Positions 6,277 through 16,729 of a stretch of 64,000 nt of DNA are shown in pieces (position 1 is the stretch's first letter; every line of letters begins with the position of its first letter). The stretch lies in contig CP030887.1 of assembly GCA_006969905.1 (NCBI GenBank), positions 2,778,730 through 2,842,729 on the forward strand. Reading direction: 5' to 3'. Source of the DNA: Balneolaceae bacterium. GTDB taxonomy: Bacteria; Bacteroidota; Rhodothermia; Balneolales; Balneolaceae. Under the pieces are notes generated by a model that saw only the letters and a list, made by a program, of their open reading frames with translations, ran no database searches and was not told the origin of the DNA. Made by a program: the position numbers and the translations under genes.

Positions 6277-8157
6277 TTATTCCTCAGATTTATATCTCAT
6301 ACTTTCAGGATCGAAAGTAAATAACCATGCTTCCGGGTTAATTTCCTGCCTTACTCTCTTTGTTTCGCTAATAGCTTCATCTAAGGATGAGAATCCATAA
6401 TAAGCTACATAGTTGAACCTTGAACTCGGGTTATACAGGATTCTTGAAACATAACCTTCTGAATCCAGAAGCTTTTCAAAACGATAAGCGTTGTCAGGTA
6501 CAATAAATGAACCACCTATAACAAAATAGCGAAGGGATTTATCTTCTGCTGCTGCTTCAATAGTACCCTCTTCCTGCTTCTTTAGATATTCATCCAGGTC
6601 AAAAGCTTTAGGAACCACCACCATTAGTTCAGCGTCTTTTACAGGCATCCCTAGCTCTTCAATATCTTTCTTTTGTTCCTCAGTTAGTTCAGCATTCTTA
6701 TCGTCACCTTTGTTTTCTTCCGGCTTTTCGTCTTTGTCAAATGGTTTTTCTGTCTCTTTATCTTCTTCTACTGTTTCAGAATCATCTGTAGTTTCCTCGG
6801 CTTTATTATCTGCCTCTGGCAAAGGAGGTACTTGTGCTTGTGCTTCTTCAAGTACATAGTCCATACTATTTCTGAACCATTCTCTTTCACTGTCAAGCAC
6901 TTCATTTTTTGATCTCAGCTTCTCATCGATCCTTTCTGTAAGGCTTTTCTCTAATTCAGCCTGAATAAGAATAACCAACTCATTCTCTACGTAATCATTA
7001 GAATTATATCCAAACAAATATCTTAAGCCAAAAAACCATGCCGGTAAATCTTTTAAAATGGGAACGCCTCTTCTCACTTTGAATTCATCGGTTTGATACA
7101 ATCCTGCAATTGACGTTGCTTCGCCGTTAAGCAAAAGAGTTTGGGTCTCAGCTGTTTGCTTGTTAATGATTGTACTTACGGCATCAGGTTGGGCTGAAGA
7201 TCGCTCTACCTGTAAGTTTAAATGAATAAATGTGGTATCATTATCAACAATTACCGTTGGGGTTACAGTAAGTATAGTACCAACACTAAAAAACTGGTCG
7301 GTTACATTACCGGCAAAATCCCGTTGTTTAATAGAAAAATCCTGGCCTACCTGGATTCTTCCTTCCCTTCCTTCAACTACTTTGATAGAAGGAGTGGCAA
7401 GCGTTCTCCCTAAATTATTGGATTCAAAGGCACTGAACAGGGCCTGTACATTAACAGGACCTACCTCCCCAAAGTTTACCAAGGCATTAAAAACATTTTG
7501 AGAAACCTGATTAGCGTTGGATGAGTTTATAGATACAAACTGATCGGTAAAAGCTGTTTGGGGGATAGATTCATTCCCGTCCCCACTGATGAAGTCTGAG
7601 ATGTTAGCTGGAACATTATCTGTAAGTGTAGACCAATCGATACCCACTTCTTCAAGCGCTCTTCTGTTACCTTCGAAAAAAGTAGCATTGATACGGACTT
7701 CCCGGGTACCTTTATTAGCTAATGTTGAAGATGGACCTTGTAAAGCCCCCTGAACCGGCTCGTTTGCAGCTAAAGCGCCATCATCAGTAGTTACGACCGG
7801 CTGCCTGACCTCATAAAATTCTTCATTTACCACCAGCTCAAGGTTCTGGAACCGAAGGATGTAGCGCAGGGCTTCTTTCCAATGCATTGCAGGTAGTGTA
7901 ACTCCTATTTCTCCTGCATAACCTGAGCGGTCAACAATAAACTTGTTTTCATACTCTTGAACAAACTGGTTAATAATCTCAATGGCTTCAACAAAAGATG
8001 TTGAACGATCAAAAGTGATTATTTCATCGGGATTAGTATACTCTCTGAATGGAAGCTGATCCTGAGCGTATATGTTTGATGTTTGAGCTATTACTACTAC
8101 TAAAAAGACTAGCAAAGCATTTAAGGTAGTGTAGATATATCGAACTGTAGATTTCAT
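6277..8157 (-). CDS. pilQ: Secretin of a type IV pilus-like system with C-terminal SPOR domain (PilQ-like)
   Basis: 626-residue outer-membrane channel subunit. A signal peptide ends near residue 31 (YAQD). Residues about 40-118 are an N-domain/STN-like module, and about 150-405 the secretin domain, with the family signature around VPILKDLPAWFFGLRYLFG (365-383) and the C-terminal ELVILIQAEL strand. Then follow a charged linker of about 110 residues rich in Glu, Asp and Lys (about 440-540) and a SPOR-like repeat (about 542-616, beginning LRYFVIGGSF). SPOR domains bind denuded peptidoglycan, so this one may take the anchoring role that AMIN domains play in usual PilQ proteins. It is last in the pilus operon and overlaps the PilO-PilP gene by 4 bp (ATGA). 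Confidence 0.87.
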   Translation of the reverse strand: MKSTVRYIYTTLNALLVFLVVVIAQTSNIYAQDQLPFREYTNPDEIITFDRSTSFVEAIEIINQFVQEYENKFIVDRSGYAGEIGVTLPAMHWKEALRYILRFQNLELVVNEEFYEVRQPVVTTDDGALAANEPVQGALQGPSSTLANKGTREVRINATFFEGNRRALEEVGIDWSTLTDNVPANISDFISGDGNESIPQTAFTDQFVSINSSNANQVSQNVFNALVNFGEVGPVNVQALFSAFESNNLGRTLATPSIKVVEGREGRIQVGQDFSIKQRDFAGNVTDQFFSVGTILTVTPTVIVDNDTTFIHLNLQVERSSAQPDAVSTIINKQTAETQTLLLNGEATSIAGLYQTDEFKVRRGVPILKDLPAWFFGLRYLFGYNSNDYVENELVILIQAELEKSLTERIDEKLRSKNEVLDSEREWFRNSMDYVLEEAQAQVPPLPEADNKAEETTDDSETVEEDKETEKPFDKDEKPEENKGDDKNAELTEEQKKDIEELGMPVKDAELMVVVPKAFDLDEYLKKQEEGTIEAAAEDKSLRYFVIGGSFIVPDNAYRFEKLLDSEGYVSRILYNPSSRFNYVAYYGFSSLDEAISETKRVRQEINPEAWLFTFDPESMRYKSEE

Positions 8158-9014
8158 CGGATCACCTTTAAAGTGAATAATTCAGTTATGCCGCCTTTAT
8201 CAAGGTTGAATATTGCCTCTCTTTCCTGGGTATTGATTGATTCCAGATAACCTAAATATACTTTATCTCCAATTTTTAAGGAATGTCTTTCCCCAGAGTT
8301 ATCTACTATAAAAACCCGGGATCCTGTCAAGCCCAGTAATCTTGAGGTTTGAACGTCTACTAAGTTATCGGTATTTGGTGGGATATCATTCAGTACAAGT
8401 GGTTTAAACGGATTGAATATGGAAATTGACTCATTCATTCTTATTGGATCGTTTCCTGAGTCCTGTGAGTCAAATGTTTCTCTTTGATAATAGCTCTGGA
8501 GTTTAAAACTAAAGTCTACATATTCTAAATCCTCGATGTTGTTACCCGGAAGTACAGATATTTCTGACACTTTATTCAATAATTCGCTGTTTTCAAGCAT
8601 ATTGATAAAGGTAACAAAGTCTGCATATACTCCCAGACCTGTGATTTTTGAATTAATTATGCCGTATTGTCCTTGCTGCGTAGAATCTTCAAGTACAAAG
8701 TCATAAAAAAGCTCCAGTTCATCACCCTGTATCTCACTTAGGTAATTATAGATGTCATCAGGGTCATTAGATGGAAACAATGTTTTGTCATAGCCTAAAA
8801 CAATTTCCCGTGCCGTATTATAACGGTCTAAAAGACCTGGATACTGATCTTGAATTTGTTGTTTTGAAGTTAAGTCCTGATTCTGAACTTCTAATTCAGC
8901 AGCAAGGTCAACAATCTTACCTTGTTGATAAAACTTAGTAAACCCTAATCCCGCACCCACAAAAAGGAATAAAGTAACTAGAAGAATAATGGTATTTCGT
9001 AATGCGTAGGACAT
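8154..9014 (-). CDS. pilO: PilO-like inner-membrane alignment protein with PilP-like C-terminal domain
   Basis: 286 residues. One membrane segment (about 8-27) is followed by a coiled coil (about 32-60) and a ferredoxin-like region typical of PilO (about 90-175). The last 80 residues (about 205-286) include LGLTGSRVFIVD, HSLKIGDKVYLGYL and a closing beta strand, which match the PilP/GspC homology-region fold that contacts the secretin. A PilO-PilP fusion is therefore likely. It lies between the PilM-PilN and secretin genes in the same operon, as the separate genes do in proteobacteria. Primary sequence in this family is poorly conserved, so the call rests on architecture and position. Confidence 0.75.
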   Translation of the reverse strand: MSYALRNTIILLVTLFLFVGAGLGFTKFYQQGKIVDLAAELEVQNQDLTSKQQIQDQYPGLLDRYNTAREIVLGYDKTLFPSNDPDDIYNYLSEIQGDELELFYDFVLEDSTQQGQYGIINSKITGLGVYADFVTFINMLENSELLNKVSEISVLPGNNIEDLEYVDFSFKLQSYYQRETFDSQDSGNDPIRMNESISIFNPFKPLVLNDIPPNTDNLVDVQTSRLLGLTGSRVFIVDNSGERHSLKIGDKVYLGYLESINTQEREAIFNLDKGGITELFTLKVIR

Positions 9015-9020
9015 AATGTA

Positions 9021-10772
9021 CTAGTTACCTAAAACCTCCTTTAATCCCTTTGCACTTTCCGGGGTATAGATTTCGTTATTTGCCACAAAAGAAGTCACCT
9101 GGTACTGAAATGAGTACACCTCTTTTTCACGTATTGTTGCCCTTGAAACATCCACAAGCACAGCATTATCAAACATATCTGCAATCATTGGGATTCTATT
9201 TCTGTATAAAGAGTATCCCTGGATATCTATAACCCCAGTTCTTAAGTCTTCAGCCATAAAAGTGATCCAGATTGAATCAATATTATCTATTCCCCGGTTA
9301 ACGATATCCAAATTGGTAGACCATGTGAGAGTTCCCGTACTCAGGTCATCTAAAAGCTCCAGCCTGGACTGTATTGCAGATAGATCGGAGCTGATGCGAT
9401 TATATTCATTAACAGTAGGTTGTAAAGAGATTATGCTTAGTTTGGCATTATTTATTTCATCCTGTAACCGGTTAATTTCGGCATCATTTGCTAAATAGTA
9501 ATAATTGGTGATCGGAAAAACGGCCAGAATCAATCCCAAAAGTAAAAAACCATGCCATTGCAGCTTAAATATTTTTTGGCGGTCTTTAACATAATTAGGG
9601 AGGAAACTGATTTTAGGAAATTTGTCCCGCTCAAAACCGGCAGATGCCCATGCCATGCCAATAGCTGTGGTAAAAGATGCTACTGTTGATTGATCGAAGT
9701 CTTCTGTATCAAAAACATTTTCATCAAAGGCAAACTCTGATACGTCTATATCCGGAAAGCGGTCCTGGAAAAACTCAACTGAGTCTTGGCCTAAACTGTT
9801 ATTGCAAAGTATAATCTTATCCAGGTTTGGGACTTCCCCTGTATCTAACTGGAATAGTATTTTACTAAAAACAGTATTCAGAAACTTTCTTGACCTGGTT
9901 CCTTCTGTAATGATTGGTGAAACAATCCAAAGCTGGTCACCTCGCATAAAAAGAACCCTGCAAGAGGTCTCGCCATATTGGATTGCAGCAGTTATAGTAT
10001 CAGCCTCAAACTCATAATTCGCTCGAATCAAGCCAATAACTAGCGCTTCATCCGGCAGAACTTCATCTATAAACAGCTTTCCTCTGTATAAGGATTGTGT
10101 TCTATTGACCAGTTGGAGCGTTTGAGGTTCATCATCAATAGATGCTAATAGTAAAGCGCCATCATTTCTTACAGAGTAGGAATAGAAGTCTTCACCTTTG
10201 GGAGTTCCATAAAGAGACTCTAACCGGTCGTCTACTATGATGCGAAGGTCTTTCTTTTTTGTAGAAGAGAAATCTACATCTTTAAGTATCTGAAAAATGG
10301 TTGAACCTGAGGGTATGTTAAGTCCAATCCTGATTTTTTTGGAATCGATAGAACTCAGAAGGTTGTATAAAAGCAGCTCATTTGAAGCGGGAGCAGCCAC
10401 ATTATTCTCGTCAGCCATATCCATGTCAACAAGGTCTTCCTCTCCTTCAAAATCGTCTAAATCAAGGTCTAACCCTAAGTCGTCGTCAACTTCTTCGGAA
10501 TCGTTATCACCCAAGTTGAGATCAAGGTCAAGATCATCTGTTTCTCCAATCTCTTCTTCTAAACCAAAAATACTGTCATCTTCAAGATCCTCATCAAAGG
10601 CATCAAAAACTTCTTCAGAGTCTGAGGAAGAACCCGTTTTTTCGAGTGTTTCAATAAGCTTGATCTTATCGACCATTACCAAAGAAGCTTTTTTACCTGA
10701 TACGCTAATCCTTGCGATTTTCAACGAATCGTCTTCGAGAACAATACCGGTATATAACTTCTTGCCAGCCAT
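9021..10772 (-). CDS. pilM: PilM-PilN fusion protein with acidic insertion
   Basis: 583 residues. The N-terminal part (1-45 and about 130-385) has the actin-like PilM fold, ending in a TAIGMAWA helix. An acidic, Asp/Glu/Leu-rich insertion occupies about 51-122. PilN begins at about 386 with KISFLPNYVKDRQK, equivalent to the conserved cytoplasmic tail that PilM grips. It continues with a membrane segment (about 407-427), a coiled coil and a ferredoxin-like domain to the C-terminus. In most pili PilM and PilN are separate proteins joined by this same short peptide, so the fusion is structurally reasonable. It connects the cytoplasmic ATPases to the inner-membrane ring. Confidence 0.8.
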   Translation of the reverse strand: MAGKKLYTGIVLEDDSLKIARISVSGKKASLVMVDKIKLIETLEKTGSSSDSEEVFDAFDEDLEDDSIFGLEEEIGETDDLDLDLNLGDNDSEEVDDDLGLDLDLDDFEGEEDLVDMDMADENNVAAPASNELLLYNLLSSIDSKKIRIGLNIPSGSTIFQILKDVDFSSTKKKDLRIIVDDRLESLYGTPKGEDFYSYSVRNDGALLLASIDDEPQTLQLVNRTQSLYRGKLFIDEVLPDEALVIGLIRANYEFEADTITAAIQYGETSCRVLFMRGDQLWIVSPIITEGTRSRKFLNTVFSKILFQLDTGEVPNLDKIILCNNSLGQDSVEFFQDRFPDIDVSEFAFDENVFDTEDFDQSTVASFTTAIGMAWASAGFERDKFPKISFLPNYVKDRQKIFKLQWHGFLLLGLILAVFPITNYYYLANDAEINRLQDEINNAKLSIISLQPTVNEYNRISSDLSAIQSRLELLDDLSTGTLTWSTNLDIVNRGIDNIDSIWITFMAEDLRTGVIDIQGYSLYRNRIPMIADMFDNAVLVDVSRATIREKEVYSFQYQVTSFVANNEIYTPESAKGLKEVLGN

Positions 10773-10780
10773 TTAATTAA

Positions 10781-12031
10781 CTAGTAATTAACCTCGCTTA
10801 AAAGTTGCACCATTTTAGTTTTATTATTGGCATAATTTACAGCGTTTTCTTTAGAAATCTTGCCGGATGAGAACAAGCGTTTTAGATCCTGTTCCATGGT
10901 AGTCATTCCCCGCTCTCCGCCTTCCATAAGCATCTGATATATCTCACCAATATTGTTGTTTCTTATAGCTGCTTTAACGGAAGAATTGGCAATAAGAACT
11001 TCTTTTGCTAATACCCTTTTACCATCCAAACTGGGAACCAGTTTTTGACTGATTACACAAGTTAAAACATCTGCAAGCCTGCTTCTTACCCTGTTTTGTT
11101 CTGCAGTAGGCACTTCCCCAAGAATACGGTCTATACTGTCCATAGCAGACGAAGTGTGGAGCGTGCTAAACGTCTTGTGACCTGAGTCGGTGATTTCTAA
11201 TGCAGTCATGATTGTTTCAGGATCCCTAAGCTCCCCTATCACTATTATATCAGGATCTTGCCTTAAGGCTTGAATAGCCCCTTCTTTGAATGATTTCACA
11301 TCACGTCCAACCTCTCTATGCCGTACAACTGACCGAACAGGCTTATGGATCAATTCAACCGGAGATGATATTACAACTATGTGTGAATCTACCGTTCTGT
11401 TATTTGCATCAATTATTGTATCTAATGTGGTAGATTTACCTGATCCTGTAATCCCGGTAATAAGTGCCAGGCCATACTTATAGTATTTTAGGCTTAATGC
11501 TTTCGCTACTTCAGGATGGACCCCAAGGCTTTTAAACGGGCGAATAGTATTATCAATCTTTCGCATATTTAAAGCCAGGTGTTCCATGTCCATATACATA
11601 TCTGCCCTAAAACGTTGCTGTGCAGTTCCTTCCAACTCTACTGAATATGAAAAATCAAGGTTCCTTTCTTTGAGTAGAATATTTCTCTGATTTTCAACCA
11701 GTATGTTGAGAAGTAAAAAGTCTGTTTCCAGAACAGAATAATTCTCTTTTTTGCTTGATGGTTTTTTATCTCCAAAAATTCGATACCAAATCTTACCATC
11801 ACACCCCATTCCTCCCAAATCTATATCAGATGCCTGGTTTTTTAACATTCGCAGAAGAAAACTATCTAATATATTTTTAAGCTTCAAACGAAGTTTATCA
11901 TCCTGATTTTCCAGGATTTCAGCAATTTTAAAAAATAGTTCATCACCTCGGGCAGTGAAAGGAATCTGCTCAATTAAAGGTTTCGTAATTTCGCTTAACG
12001 TATTTTTTGAATTTGCCGTCTGCATTAGCAA
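10781..12031 (-). CDS. pilT: PilT-like retraction ATPase
   Basis: 416-residue GspE/PilT-family ATPase. Walker A is GITGSGKST (193-201). The Asp box and Walker B are in RQDPDIIVIGELRD, and the His box in FSTLHTSSAMDSIDR. It lacks the C4 zinc motif found in PilB, as PilT does. An N-terminal extension of about 100 residues precedes the usual PilT start, longer than the classic 345-residue enzyme. Two ATG codons near 12031 and 12025 are possible starts. It sits between the cyclic-nucleotide-binding gene and the PilM-PilN gene. It probably powers disassembly of the fibre, or is a second assembly motor. Confidence 0.85.
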   Translation of the reverse strand: MLMQTANSKNTLSEITKPLIEQIPFTARGDELFFKIAEILENQDDKLRLKLKNILDSFLLRMLKNQASDIDLGGMGCDGKIWYRIFGDKKPSSKKENYSVLETDFLLLNILVENQRNILLKERNLDFSYSVELEGTAQQRFRADMYMDMEHLALNMRKIDNTIRPFKSLGVHPEVAKALSLKYYKYGLALITGITGSGKSTTLDTIIDANNRTVDSHIVVISSPVELIHKPVRSVVRHREVGRDVKSFKEGAIQALRQDPDIIVIGELRDPETIMTALEITDSGHKTFSTLHTSSAMDSIDRILGEVPTAEQNRVRSRLADVLTCVISQKLVPSLDGKRVLAKEVLIANSSVKAAIRNNNIGEIYQMLMEGGERGMTTMEQDLKRLFSSGKISKENAVNYANNKTKMVQLLSEVNY

Positions 12032-12127: not shown

Positions 12128-12634
12128 TTACCAATTATTGTCGTTTAATAACCTTTTCTTAAGATTTAGTAACTGAACATTCATATTACTAATCTTTCTT
12201 TGCTGTATTTCGATGATATTTTTTGTGAATATGTTAAACAATTTCTCTGGTTTTTTTCTGAAAAAATTGAGTGCATCATAACGTTCGTAACGAAGCAGGA
12301 TACAGTCCCCGTCGGAAGTTACTTTTGCCATTCTGCTGTTCTTACTAAACAGAAAAGCTTCTCCTAAAAAATTCCCTTCAGAGAGCGTTGCAAGCTGAAT
12401 ATTATCTTTCCATATGGTAACCTTGCCATCAGCTACTAAATAAGCTGAATTCACATACTCCGATTCATTCAGGATAACATCATCAGTTAGATAACGCTCC
12501 TCAACTCCTAATTGAAGAAACTCCAGTACATCTTCATAGTGAAAATTCCTTAGAAGTAAAGGAGGCTCCTTCAGAAATTTCTTAATGTAATCGGGCATGG
12601 ATCCTGTATTGGTATTTTTTAAGTCATTAGTCAT
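12128..12634 (-). CDS. Cyclic-nucleotide-binding-domain protein within the pilus operon
   Basis: 168 residues, mostly one CAP_ED/cNMP-binding beta barrel (about 27-125): VILNESEYVNSAYLVADGK then EGNFLGEAFLFSKNSRMAK, which corresponds to the phosphate-binding cassette (GE at the end of FLGE, then a short helix). The Arg that contacts the cyclic phosphate is not in its most usual position, so ligand binding is uncertain. A helical tail (about 135-165) follows, and there is no DNA-binding domain. It lies between the PilB and PilT genes, which suggests it tunes one of the motors in response to a nucleotide signal. Weak hairpin-forming sequence follows it at about 12096-12122. Confidence 0.78.
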   Translation of the reverse strand: MTNDLKNTNTGSMPDYIKKFLKEPPLLLRNFHYEDVLEFLQLGVEERYLTDDVILNESEYVNSAYLVADGKVTIWKDNIQLATLSEGNFLGEAFLFSKNSRMAKVTSDGDCILLRYERYDALNFFRKKPEKLFNIFTKNIIEIQQRKISNMNVQLLNLKKRLLNDNNW

Positions 12635-12706: not shown

Positions 12707-14485
12707 TTAATCTTCAATTGTACTCGCGATTATTTCTTCTATGGTAGTAATACCTTCTTTAATTCGTTCTCGGCCCGATCCTCTTAGTGTGAGCATTCCC
12801 TGAGCTGTGGCCAGTTCTTTGATGGCCCCTTCGTCTACATCACTTCCTGAATCAAGAACCAACTCTTTAATCTCTTTTGAGAAATAGAGTGCTTCATGTA
12901 TAGCAGATCTTCCTTTAAAACCTGAGGTGCCACATATTTCGCAACCTACCGCCTTATAAAACGTGGTTTCTTCTATTTCTTCATCAGTAAATCCCAGTCC
13001 TTTAGCGATTTCCGGGTGCGGCTCATATTCTTCCTTACAGTTTTTGCATAACCTTCTAATCAGGCGTTGAGCCATTACCAGGTTAACAGCATTTGCAATC
13101 AAAAACGGTTCCACTCCCATCTTAAATAAACGAGAAACAGCACTTGGTGCATCATTGGTGTGTAAGGTAGAAAAGGTAAGGTGACCGGTATTTGCAAGTT
13201 TAATCGCAATTTCAGCTGTTTTTAAATCCCTCATCTCACCTACAAGAACAATATCAGGGTCATGACGAAGAATACCCCTGATAGACTGATCAAAAGTCAT
13301 ATGATGACTTATTTTTAACTGCCTGGCCCCTTCAATTATGTATTCTACCGGTTCCTCAATTGTTAATACATTTTTAGTAGGGTCAATTACAGAGTATAAA
13401 GCAGCTACAAGAGTAGTGGATTTACCGCTACCTGTAGGCCCGGTAATAATAACAATACCTGAAGGCTGACTAATTGATTTTACAAAATTTGTTTTCGCAA
13501 TAGGTTGCAAACCAAGTAAATCTAAATCGCGAATTACTTTCCGGTCATCAAGAATTCGGATAACGATGGATTCGAATTTTCTATCATACTGATTACCAAC
13601 AATCGGCATTATAGAAACGCGGTATCTGATCCCTACTCCATCTATTTGCCGTTGAATAAAACCATCCTGAGAAGCATCTCTCTCAAACCGGTCTACATTC
13701 CGGGTTTTATCTTTTATTACAGCTGAAATGGCTTCCGGTTTAACATTCTTCTGTTGATACCACAATTGCAGCTTACCATCAATTCGAAAACGTATATCAG
13801 TTGTTGTGGGGCCGCTGGGTATAATATGCAAATCACTTACACCCTGACGTACTGATTCAACAAGCATACCTTCAACCAAAGAATTAAGCATACTTTGGTT
13901 GATCTCAGCATCAATTTCTTCCTCATCAATCTCTTCATCCTCTTCTCCCTCTAACTGAGTTTCATCATAATCTATTTCTTCAAGCAGGTCGAGAAACTCA
14001 TTCTTCTGCTCATACACCTGGGAAAGAACATCCTCAATTAGTTCATATTTACAATAAACTAATTCACTTTTTTTAAAATTGAGCTTCTGGATGACACTCT
14101 GAATGTTAGGGTCAGAAGGATCAGCTGCAGCTATAGTAATTGAACTATTGGTTCTTCTGAAAGGTAATGCCTTCAAAACCACCAGCTCATCAATAATCTC
14201 CTGGTTAAGATCCTCAACATTCTTTTTGATGTGATCAACAATGTCTCCTGGTACTTTATCAGCAGACTCCAATACTTCCCTGAACGCATAAATTCCGGCA
14301 ATCTCTTTCATTATTACATGCCGGTTCAATCCCAAATCCTGAAATAATATCTGCCCCAAACGCCGGTTACTTGTCTCCGGTTCAACTTCAAGTATAGCCA
14401 AAGCTTCTTGAAGTTGTTCGGACGAGATAACTCCTTTTTTTACGAGTATATCCCCAATATGTCGACGTATGTTTATTTTACCCAT
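12707..14485 (-). CDS. pilB: PilB/GspE-type assembly ATPase
   Basis: 592 residues. An N-terminal MshEN/GspE-N domain (about 1-170, beginning IGDILVKKGVISSEQL) can bind c-di-GMP in some relatives. An acidic linker (about 172-192) follows, then the ATPase core with SDLHIIPSGP, Walker A GPTGSGKSTT, RHDPDIVLVGEMRD and FSTLHTNDAPSAVSR. A four-cysteine zinc motif typical of PilB/GspE is present (LCKNC then CEICGTSG). It drives assembly of the pilin fibre with PilC. The ATG overlaps the stop of the pilC gene (TAATG), so the two are translationally coupled. Confidence 0.92.
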   Translation of the reverse strand: MGKINIRRHIGDILVKKGVISSEQLQEALAILEVEPETSNRRLGQILFQDLGLNRHVIMKEIAGIYAFREVLESADKVPGDIVDHIKKNVEDLNQEIIDELVVLKALPFRRTNSSITIAAADPSDPNIQSVIQKLNFKKSELVYCKYELIEDVLSQVYEQKNEFLDLLEEIDYDETQLEGEEDEEIDEEEIDAEINQSMLNSLVEGMLVESVRQGVSDLHIIPSGPTTTDIRFRIDGKLQLWYQQKNVKPEAISAVIKDKTRNVDRFERDASQDGFIQRQIDGVGIRYRVSIMPIVGNQYDRKFESIVIRILDDRKVIRDLDLLGLQPIAKTNFVKSISQPSGIVIITGPTGSGKSTTLVAALYSVIDPTKNVLTIEEPVEYIIEGARQLKISHHMTFDQSIRGILRHDPDIVLVGEMRDLKTAEIAIKLANTGHLTFSTLHTNDAPSAVSRLFKMGVEPFLIANAVNLVMAQRLIRRLCKNCKEEYEPHPEIAKGLGFTDEEIEETTFYKAVGCEICGTSGFKGRSAIHEALYFSKEIKELVLDSGSDVDEGAIKELATAQGMLTLRGSGRERIKEGITTIEEIIASTIED

Positions 14486-15813
14486 TAGTTAGGCTTAATA
14501 ACAGCTGATTCGGATGAAACTACGGTGATTCCCACTAAAGCAATCATGATAAACAAATTAACAAAAAGACTGATTGTATCAATGACTGATTGCATTTTAT
14601 ATGTAGTTTGAACTTCGTAGTATTCTGCCAGCTGTTTAGCATTCTCTCTAAGAGAACCAGACTCCGCACCTAAACGGAATCTGCTTATAGCAGTTCGGGT
14701 AAAAACACCGGTTTCTTCCATAGATTCAATAAGCCCTGCTCCGTCTTTAAGCATTCTTTTAATGGCTATATCTTTTATCTGTCTCTCCATGTAAGTATTT
14801 CTGCAAGCCTCTGATGCTACCTTGATTACTTCAATATTTTGCCCCGATCCGCTATAAAGGGTATAAAATACACGTGCAAAAATTTCGATACTTGTTTTAT
14901 GAAGTAAGTCTCCAATTACAGGGATCCTTATAATGATTTTATCTAACAGAAGTTTTCCTTTTGGGGTCTTTGCAAAATAAACCAACCCTAAAACAGGGGC
15001 TAAAAATCCAATAAGTAAAAAGACCCAATTTGCATCAAGCCAATAACTGATTTCAAGAGTCTTTGCCGTCATAGGGGGTAATTCAATCCCCATGTCAACA
15101 AATAACTCAGCAGTAGAAGGAAAAATATAACCCACGTAGAAAAGGACAACACCAATTACTGCAATAACTGTAATTGCAGGCATCATTAATGATCGTTTTA
15201 AATTCTTTTTGAATTCTGCATCCCTTTCCAAAAACTTCGCTGTACTCTCAAAAACCAAACCCATATTACCTGAGGTAGATGCAACACTTAACATGTAAGC
15301 CGCAAACTTCCCAAAAACATCTTCATGTTTACCATAAACTTCAGAACCCTCTTTACCATCCTTTAAATCTTTCTGAATGGTTTTGATGACCTCCTTCATC
15401 CTCTTGTTACCTGTATCTTCGTACAAAAGATTGAGGATCTCATCAAAAGTAAGTTGCTGTTTAAGCAAGTCGGCAGAAAGGCTTACAAAGGTTACCACCT
15501 CGGTGTGTGGTACGCTCCCTTTCATTTCAAACAGCTTTTTATTGATGCTTACAACATCATATCCAAGCTTAATAAGAGCTTTTTCTACTTCTTCTTTTGA
15601 ATATGCTTCTTGTTCCCCGTTTAAAGCAGGCTTACCGGGACGCTTGACCTTATACATGTAAACCGCTTTCTTTTCTAATGACTGAACTGTAAGGCCATTA
15701 GTTTTCGACAAACGATCTACCTTATCCTGGGCAACTTTTTTGGTTTCAGCTTCAAATTCCTTCTGAATTACCCTCCCAGTATTAGAAACTGCTTTAAATC
15801 TAAAGTATGCCAT
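14485..15813 (-). CDS. pilC: PilC/GspF-type inner-membrane platform protein
   Basis: 442 residues. Two GspF cytoplasmic domains (about 100-225 and about 300-405) alternate with membrane segments near 206-232, 257-280 and 415-440, giving the standard platform topology. The second domain has IEIFARVFYTLYSGSGQ and FRLGAESGSLREN, both typical of the family. The first 95 residues carry a duplicated small N-terminal region like that of longer PilC proteins. It probably organises pilins over the rotating ATPase. It directly follows the second pilin gene (9 bp) and overlaps pilB by one base. Confidence 0.9.
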   Translation of the reverse strand: MAYFRFKAVSNTGRVIQKEFEAETKKVAQDKVDRLSKTNGLTVQSLEKKAVYMYKVKRPGKPALNGEQEAYSKEEVEKALIKLGYDVVSINKKLFEMKGSVPHTEVVTFVSLSADLLKQQLTFDEILNLLYEDTGNKRMKEVIKTIQKDLKDGKEGSEVYGKHEDVFGKFAAYMLSVASTSGNMGLVFESTAKFLERDAEFKKNLKRSLMMPAITVIAVIGVVLFYVGYIFPSTAELFVDMGIELPPMTAKTLEISYWLDANWVFLLIGFLAPVLGLVYFAKTPKGKLLLDKIIIRIPVIGDLLHKTSIEIFARVFYTLYSGSGQNIEVIKVASEACRNTYMERQIKDIAIKRMLKDGAGLIESMEETGVFTRTAISRFRLGAESGSLRENAKQLAEYYEVQTTYKMQSVIDTISLFVNLFIMIALVGITVVSSESAVIKPN

Positions 15814-15822
15814 AGTTTTAAT

Positions 15823-16194
15823 TTACAATTGTACCCAGGTAAGACCTGATTTTGTAATAGTTGCAATTATTTCGTCTTCGCCATTCTTGGTCACTGCTCT
15901 AAGCGTAAAGGATGATACGGTTTTGTCCTCAATATAATACTCTCCATTTATACCATTTGCATCCACACCAAGATGGCTGTGATTAACATTTATGAAGCTG
16001 CCGGAGCCGCCACCCATTCCTGCAGGCCTGGTGAAGTAAGATTGCGCATTTGAAGCTGCAACAAGCATCTCCTGGCGGATTGCATCTTTATTAGATTCAC
16101 CATCATGTTCTTTTACCACATTTATAGCTACCACAACTGATATGCCTATAATGATCGAAATCAAAATAATGATAATAATCTCTTTATTTGCCAT
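15823..16194 (-). CDS. Second pilin-like protein, non-canonical N-terminus
   Basis: 123 residues. The hydrophobic helix starts almost at the N-terminus (MANKEIIIIILISIIIG), with no Gly before it and no FTLxE motif. It is clearly paralogous to the upstream pilin-like protein: the helix patterns match, both then have an xxIRQ/xxVRQ-type motif (DAIRQEM versus DSVRQDM), aromatic residues, and a Gly-rich GGGSGSF loop near residue 63. The rest is beta-rich. It is probably a minor pilin or tip subunit. Without Gly at -1, cleavage by a standard prepilin peptidase is doubtful. No Shine-Dalgarno sequence is visible, unlike its neighbour. Confidence 0.7.
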   Translation of the reverse strand: MANKEIIIIILISIIIGISVVVAINVVKEHDGESNKDAIRQEMLVAASNAQSYFTRPAGMGGGSGSFINVNHSHLGVDANGINGEYYIEDKTVSSFTLRAVTKNGEDEIIATITKSGLTWVQL

Positions 16195-16224
16195 AGCAAT
16201 CTATTTTAGATTATTAAACTGAAT

Positions 16225-16253
16225 ATAAAAAAAAGGCTCCACGTGGGAGCCTT
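16225..16253 (-). terminator. Intrinsic terminator after the first pilin gene
   Basis: AAGGCTCC (16233-16240) and GGAGCCTT (16246-16253) form a perfect stem with a five-base loop. On the minus strand it is followed by a run of T (A-tract at 16227-16234 on the plus strand). It lies between the two pilin-like genes, so most transcripts should end after the first and some read through into the machinery genes. Confidence 0.85.
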
Positions 16254-16282
16254 ATATTATCAAGATTTCTTAAAGAAAGAAA

Positions 16283-16729
16283 TTATTCACTCCAAGAAGA
16301 TGCGTCAAGACCACTAGGAGTGATAGTAACGGTTATCGGAGTAGAAGCAGTAGCTGTAGCAGATACAGGACCTTCAATACGGCTGGCAGGATGTGCTGTA
16401 AGTACGAAAGTTGAATCTGTAGCTCCAGGTGCAGGGAATGAATATACACCGTTAGAGTTAACAGCAGTAGTATTGCTATTAGCATAAGAATCAGCCGGGA
16501 AAGCTACACGGATGAAAGTAAGACCACTAAAGTCTCCACCACCACCACCTAACATTTCTGGCTTCATGTAGTAACCTACAGCTGAAGAAGCAAAAGCAAC
16601 CATGTCCTGACGAACAGAGTCGATGTTTGCACTATCAGATGCACTTGAGAAGGTATTGATAGCAACTACAGTTGCGATACCTACGATAATTGTTACTAGA
16701 ATTACAAGAAGTAATTGTTGTTGACCCAT
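16283..16729 (-). CDS. Probable major pilin-like subunit, non-canonical N-terminus
   Basis: 148 residues. It starts MGQQQLLLVILVTIIVG: if cleaved after Gly2, the mature protein begins QQQ with a hydrophobic helix and has Leu rather than Glu at position 5. A small beta-rich head follows, with a GGGGGDF loop near residue 60-66 and Ser/Thr-rich C-terminal strands. It is the first gene of the pilus operon. It has the only strong Shine-Dalgarno sequence in that operon and is followed by a terminator, both consistent with a highly made structural subunit. The pilin assignment comes from helix pattern, paralogy to the next gene and position; I recognise no specific pilin family. Confidence 0.72.
   Translation of the reverse strand: MGQQQLLLVILVTIIVGIATVVAINTFSSASDSANIDSVRQDMVAFASSAVGYYMKPEMLGGGGGDFSGLTFIRVAFPADSYANSNTTAVNSNGVYSFPAPGATDSTFVLTAHPASRIEGPVSATATASTPITVTITPSGLDASSWSE

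Follow-up and report, generated by a model that had tools for sequence, protein, structure and literature searches.

Type IV filaments are described in reviews as sharing a conserved core to which the prepilin peptidase belongs, and Glu5 of the mature pilin is considered almost invariant and required for homopolymers in bacteria (PMC4471445, PMC6668835). According to Berry and Pelicic, every phylum with prepilins apart from Nanoarchaeota has a peptidase, and the leader that it removes is 6-26 residues long (PMC4471445). Denise et al. assign the peptidase to the ancestral system (PMC6668835). In the canonical view, Glu5 pairs with the N-terminus of the neighbouring subunit, and Glu5 mutants form no homopolymers (PMC4471445). 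In PilD-less mutants of model species, the prepilins stay in the membrane (PMC8546353). In the openly licensed literature, we found no type IV pili reported for Balneolota and no description of the protein family treated here, of pilins starting with MGQQQ, or of leaderless pilins.

The window analysed here is a stretch of 64,000 nucleotides from a Balneolaceae bacterium (assembly GCA_006969905.1, contig CP030887.1, positions 2,778,730 to 2,842,729). It contains two adjacent open reading frames on the minus strand. Pilin 1, the probable major subunit, is encoded at 16283..16729 (148 aa, start at 16729) and has the N-terminus MGQQQLLLVILVTIIVGIATVVAI...; pilin 2 is encoded at 15823..16194 (123 aa, start at 16194) and begins with MANKEIIIIILISIIIGISVVVAI... 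The first-pass annotation had read both N-termini correctly and had regarded the proteins as paralogues, with which our comparison agrees: the identity is 36% in the family alignment, and a search with pilin 1 retrieves pilin 2 with E = 8.7e-14. The MANKE start of pilin 2 is a rare variant, as both paralogues start with MGQQQ in most relatives. Its Glu is residue 5 of the unprocessed protein (M-A-N-K-E) and not position 5 of a cleaved pilin. The stop-to-stop frames span only 151 codons (pilin 1) and 125 codons (pilin 2), with three and two codons, respectively, between the upstream stop and the ATG, and an AGGAG precedes the ATG of pilin 1 at ribosome-binding distance. Neither Pfam nor NCBIfam has a model that covers the two proteins, and their only Pfam pilin match was a sub-threshold one to ComP.

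An AlphaFold model of pilin 1, built from an alignment of 106 relatives, reached a pLDDT of 94.6 and predicts a helix over residues 2-55 followed by a beta sheet; for pilin 2, the pLDDT was 95.4. When the models were compared with known structures by VIA-align, the best 12 rows for pilin 1 and the best 17 rows for pilin 2 were all type IV pilins or pseudopilins, and unrelated proteins ranked well below the pilins. Most Z-scores were moderate. Pilins 1 and 2 gave 7.7 and 8.4 with Thermus PilA4 and 6.8 and 7.9 with the full-length PAK pilin, respectively, and pilin 2 gave 9.5 with PilV. A Foldseek search against the PDB returned no meaningful match and no pilin among its results. With a profile of the 106-member family, known pilins came first among the PDB sequences (E about 3e-4); these matches, such as the Geobacter pilin (E 2.8e-4) and Thermus PilA5 (E 3.4e-4), are weak. 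In the structure alignments, family residue 2-4 is matched with mature residue 1 of full-length PilA4, PAK and FimA. Hence, the family proteins begin where a mature pilin begins. The Glu5 of canonical pilins aligns with Leu at family residues 7-8, and a mature Glu5 is therefore lacking. Judged by their predicted fold and the adjoining machine genes, both window proteins are type IV pilins.

The pilin genes head an operon of uniform orientation (all genes on the minus strand) that runs to a PilQ-like secretin. Next to pilin 2 lies the gene for a PilC/GspF-like inner-membrane platform protein (14485..15813; PF00482, E 9.5e-31; GspF/PilC models, E about 1e-44). It is followed by that of a PilB-like assembly ATPase with an MshEN domain (12707..14485; PF00437, E 3e-96; PF05157 above the cut-off; TIGR02538 PilB, E 9e-129). 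MshEN domains are of a type that binds cyclic di-GMP; thus, pilus assembly may be under cyclic di-GMP control. A PilT/PilU-like retraction ATPase, listed with a TTG start, is encoded at 10781..12031 (TIGR01420 pilT, E 6.6e-94, with 314.9 bits below the cut-off of 319.1). Between pilB and pilT, a small protein with a cyclic-nucleotide-binding domain is encoded (12128..12634; PF00027, E 1.9e-10), and such a gene occupies the same place in 23 related loci. Two further proteins, of 583 aa (9021..10772) and 286 aa (8154..9014), had no Pfam match. From gene order and predicted membrane helices, the former (a soluble N-terminal part and one C-terminal membrane helix) is inferred to be a probable PilM/PilN-like alignment protein and the latter (an N-terminal membrane helix) a probable PilO-like protein; together (8154-10772), they may form a highly diverged inner-membrane alignment complex. 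The last gene encodes the PilQ/GspD-like outer-membrane secretin (6277..8157; PF00263, E 2.6e-27; TIGR02515 PilQ, E 2.4e-24). Assembly ATPase, platform protein and secretin are all encoded alongside the pilins. Among 120 related loci, many of them on short contigs, 91 have a PilC homologue.

We gathered 184 family members from Balneolota, other Rhodothermia and Ignavibacteria. Most of the 80 anchor loci were picked by their N-terminal pattern. Another 62 members were fetched from Rhodothermia genomes by a profile without any N-terminal pattern, and all of these begin with M/V-GQQQ. The family was found in 41 of 59 relatives, and a genome may hold up to nine paralogues; such a recurrence is well beyond chance. 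Position 1 is encoded by ATG in 181 members and by GTG in three, and GQQQ directly follows the start codon in 172 of the 184. At the N-terminus, 169 members have MGQQQ, seven MGSQQ, three VGQQQ (GTG start) and two MGTQQ, and MGIQQ, MANKE and MSQKT each occur in one member. Gly2 is present in 182 members. The nearest in-frame stop upstream lies a median of four codons away (eight or fewer in 143 of 183), which leaves no room for a leader of 6-26 residues. Accordingly, a canonical leader of this length ending in Gly is absent from the 184 members. Upstream of 104 of 183 starts lies a Shine-Dalgarno-like motif, which 6% of shuffles show. Columns 1-5 of the alignment are 98% conserved, columns 6-24 71% and the C-terminal domain beyond column 54 40%. 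Gln is encoded by both CAA and CAG, and the Leu codons also vary synonymously; with the N-terminal conservation, this indicates selection at the protein level.

The first-pass annotation had proposed a pilin-like pair without mature Glu5, and the fold, the reading frames and the comparison of the 184 members bear it out. It had named two findings that would overturn the proposal, an alternative upstream start giving a normal leader and homologues with Glu5. We looked for both: no upstream start provides a leader, and the compared N-termini include no mature Glu5. A leader hidden by a wrong start call was ruled out by the upstream stops.

Some members differ from the common start or position. 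In Ignavibacteria loci, including L110, L122 and L127, a second paralogue starts with MGSQQ or MGTQQ; Ser and Thr are thus accepted at residue 3, and Gln is retained at residues 4-5. The paralogues starting with MGIQQ and MSQKT are extra copies beside an MGQQQ gene on the minus strand (L103:4175-4769 region). The genome of the window itself encodes a third MGQQQ pilin (L169:2252-2698 (2078251)), which stands alone, 3' of a TatD-type hydrolase gene and away from the operon.

The conserved N-terminus can be read in another way, in which the initiator Met is kept in place of Phe1 and Gln5 (Glu5 in MANKE and MGNRE) is a direct stand-in for Glu5. Residue 5 of the primary product is indeed Gln or Glu in 183 of the 184 members, and one alignment with a PAO1 pilus starts at model residue 1. 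However, with Gly or Ala as the second residue, removal of the initiator Met is strongly favoured, and the sequence alignments and most full-length structure alignments match family residue 2-4 with mature residue 1. We therefore regard a retained Met as improbable.

For the distribution of the prepilin peptidase, we used 165 Rhodothermia genomes that were at least 90% complete. The family is present in 116 of them and PilC-type PF00482 in 120, compared with 16 for the prepilin peptidase (PF01478) and 17 for canonical N_methyl pilins. Peptidase and canonical pilins occur together in 15 genomes (Fisher p = 3e-18), and PilC co-occurs with the family (p = 5e-24), whereas peptidase and family show no association (p = 0.40); these p-values ignore phylogeny. 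Among the 116 family-bearing genomes, 13 have a peptidase, and none is detectable in 103. In the window's own genus, the family is found in 8/8 genomes and the peptidase in 2/8. A second sample comprised 129 genomes from the class of G317, probably Ignavibacteria because the named distant loci are Ignavibacteriae. Here, 69 genomes carry the family and seven the peptidase, and 62 of the 69 carriers have no detectable peptidase. These absences are results of profile searches, partly on draft genomes. A profile made from eleven peptidases of the lineage detected no further peptidase, only fragments with E above 0.015, and a hidden divergent A24-type peptidase was rejected on this basis.

The genome of the window has a single peptidase, encoded at a separate locus about 0.44 Mb from the window pilins. 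It adjoins a canonical pilin (SGFSLTELLIVLAIIG; GFSLTELL) and a GspC-like gene, and more canonical pilins (GYTIVE, GYSLVE) are encoded nearby. Cleavage by the peptidase of another pilus system, as for MSHA pili, can be ruled out where the genome has none. G004 and G017 hold a second, canonical-type PilC and no detected peptidase, and G004 also holds N_methyl pilins; this pattern reflects either assembly gaps or real losses.

One could suspect that the gene starts are wrong, that the genes are pseudogenes or that the peptidase is missing only through incomplete assemblies, some genomes being drafts. We give next to no credence to such an artefact: stops lie immediately upstream of the starts across genera, the start region is under purifying selection, and the peptidase is also lost in single-contig genomes with the family, which include G043, G076, G097, G115, G125 and G128.

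As the peptidase is missing from most family-bearing genomes, the data favour pilins that are not cleaved by a prepilin peptidase. The first-pass annotation had left open a divergent class with other processing or subunits that are not cleaved at all. This proposal is supported, and of its two options the data point to the second, in the specific sense given here. It had also suggested that pilin 1 could be cut after Gly2. In genomes without a detectable peptidase, such a cut cannot depend on prepilin peptidase; a cut by some unrelated peptidase remains possible. Met-Gly would then be a minimal leader removed by an unrecognised enzyme. The Gln exposed by the cut might go on to form pyroglutamate, in some resemblance to archaeal pilins; a lactam-ring N-terminus is reported for the Methanococcus maripaludis pilin (PMC4471445). 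Bacterial leaders also end in Gly (PMC4471445), Gly2 is kept in 182 of the 184 members, and the alignment with PilA4 pairs its mature residue 1 with model residue 3. Against this stand the Ala2 and Ser2 members, which have no such Gly, the known leader length of 6-26 residues, the lack of a prepilin peptidase in most hosts and the lack of any apparent protease gene between secretin and pilins in the window operon. We consider a minimal leader unlikely.

Our preferred reading, to which we assign a probability of roughly 0.8, is that translation yields these pilins almost in their mature form, with no class III leader, and that the adjacent machine assembles them without prepilin peptidase. The N-terminal hydrophobic helix would serve as an uncleaved membrane anchor, with an N-in orientation that we infer because the segment after the helix is net negative in 74% of the members. 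Methionine aminopeptidase probably removes Met1, as is expected with Gly, Ala or Ser in second place; matches to this enzyme were found in 59/59 relatives, 44 of them above the curated cut-off. The predicted product, GQQQLLL... or ANKEIII..., would have an N-terminus one or two residues longer than that of a peptidase-processed pilin. The PilB, PilC, PilT and PilQ proteins encoded next door would assemble this subunit with neither prepilin peptidase nor N-methylation. Residues 3-5 form an almost invariant Gln cluster just before the Leu that stands in the place of Glu5, and this cluster may take over the polar role of Glu5 at the N-terminus and provide the polar contacts. These roles and filament assembly itself are inferences, as protein and microscopy data are not available. 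It also counts against the preferred reading that the conservation of Gly2 is stricter than the methionine aminopeptidase rule needs and is reminiscent of Gly -1.

The products could also be pseudopilins that reside in the membrane as part of a secretion or signalling device and form no surface pili. The behaviour of prepilins in PilD-less mutants (PMC8546353) and of Glu5 mutants (PMC4471445) described above would fit such a role. The locus, however, has a PilT-type retraction ATPase and a PilQ-like secretin besides PilB and PilC, and up to nine paralogues are kept per genome, which makes pseudopilins an unlikely explanation.

Taken together, we propose a real, widespread and apparently undescribed class of pilins that bypasses prepilin processing in most hosts, for which biochemical proof is lacking. 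It is also fairly probable that they represent a branch of type IV filament machines, spanning at least two classes, without leader, prepilin peptidase, N-methylation and Glu5, in which the Met-processed Gly-Gln-Gln-Gln serves as the assembly signal. If true, a natural system without peptidase or Glu5 would mean that pilus assembly does not inherently require leader cleavage, and a textbook step would apparently be skipped in a large group of environmental bacteria. With the leaderless family in many cultured and uncultured lineages, the roles of Glu5 and N-methylation become directly testable.

Compared with known systems, the family shares with bacterial type IVa pilins (PilA4 of Thermus, PAK pilin, PilV) the long hydrophobic helix at the N-terminus with a beta sheet after it, and the genes for PilB, PilC, PilT and a secretin. 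In contrast to them, it has no leader, no Gly -1/Phe1 and no Glu5, and the genome usually has no prepilin peptidase. Archaeal type IV pilins also often lack Glu5 and follow a relaxed leader rule (PMC4471445), but they have retained both a leader and a peptidase of the A24 type, and our analysis found no sequence link between them and the family. For MSHA pili, the peptidase gene is likewise missing from the locus, but their genomes always hold another peptidase (PMC6668835), whereas most family genomes hold none. In Melioribacter roseus, pilT, pilQ, pilB and pilC were reported and pilA and pilD were not, which the authors read as an incomplete system (PMC3534657). This gene set is as expected if its pilin belongs to the family; if true, the incomplete set of this Ignavibacteria member would be explained, because current models do not recognise the pilin. 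We place the system among type IV filaments, as a variant of them rather than a structure of a new kind.
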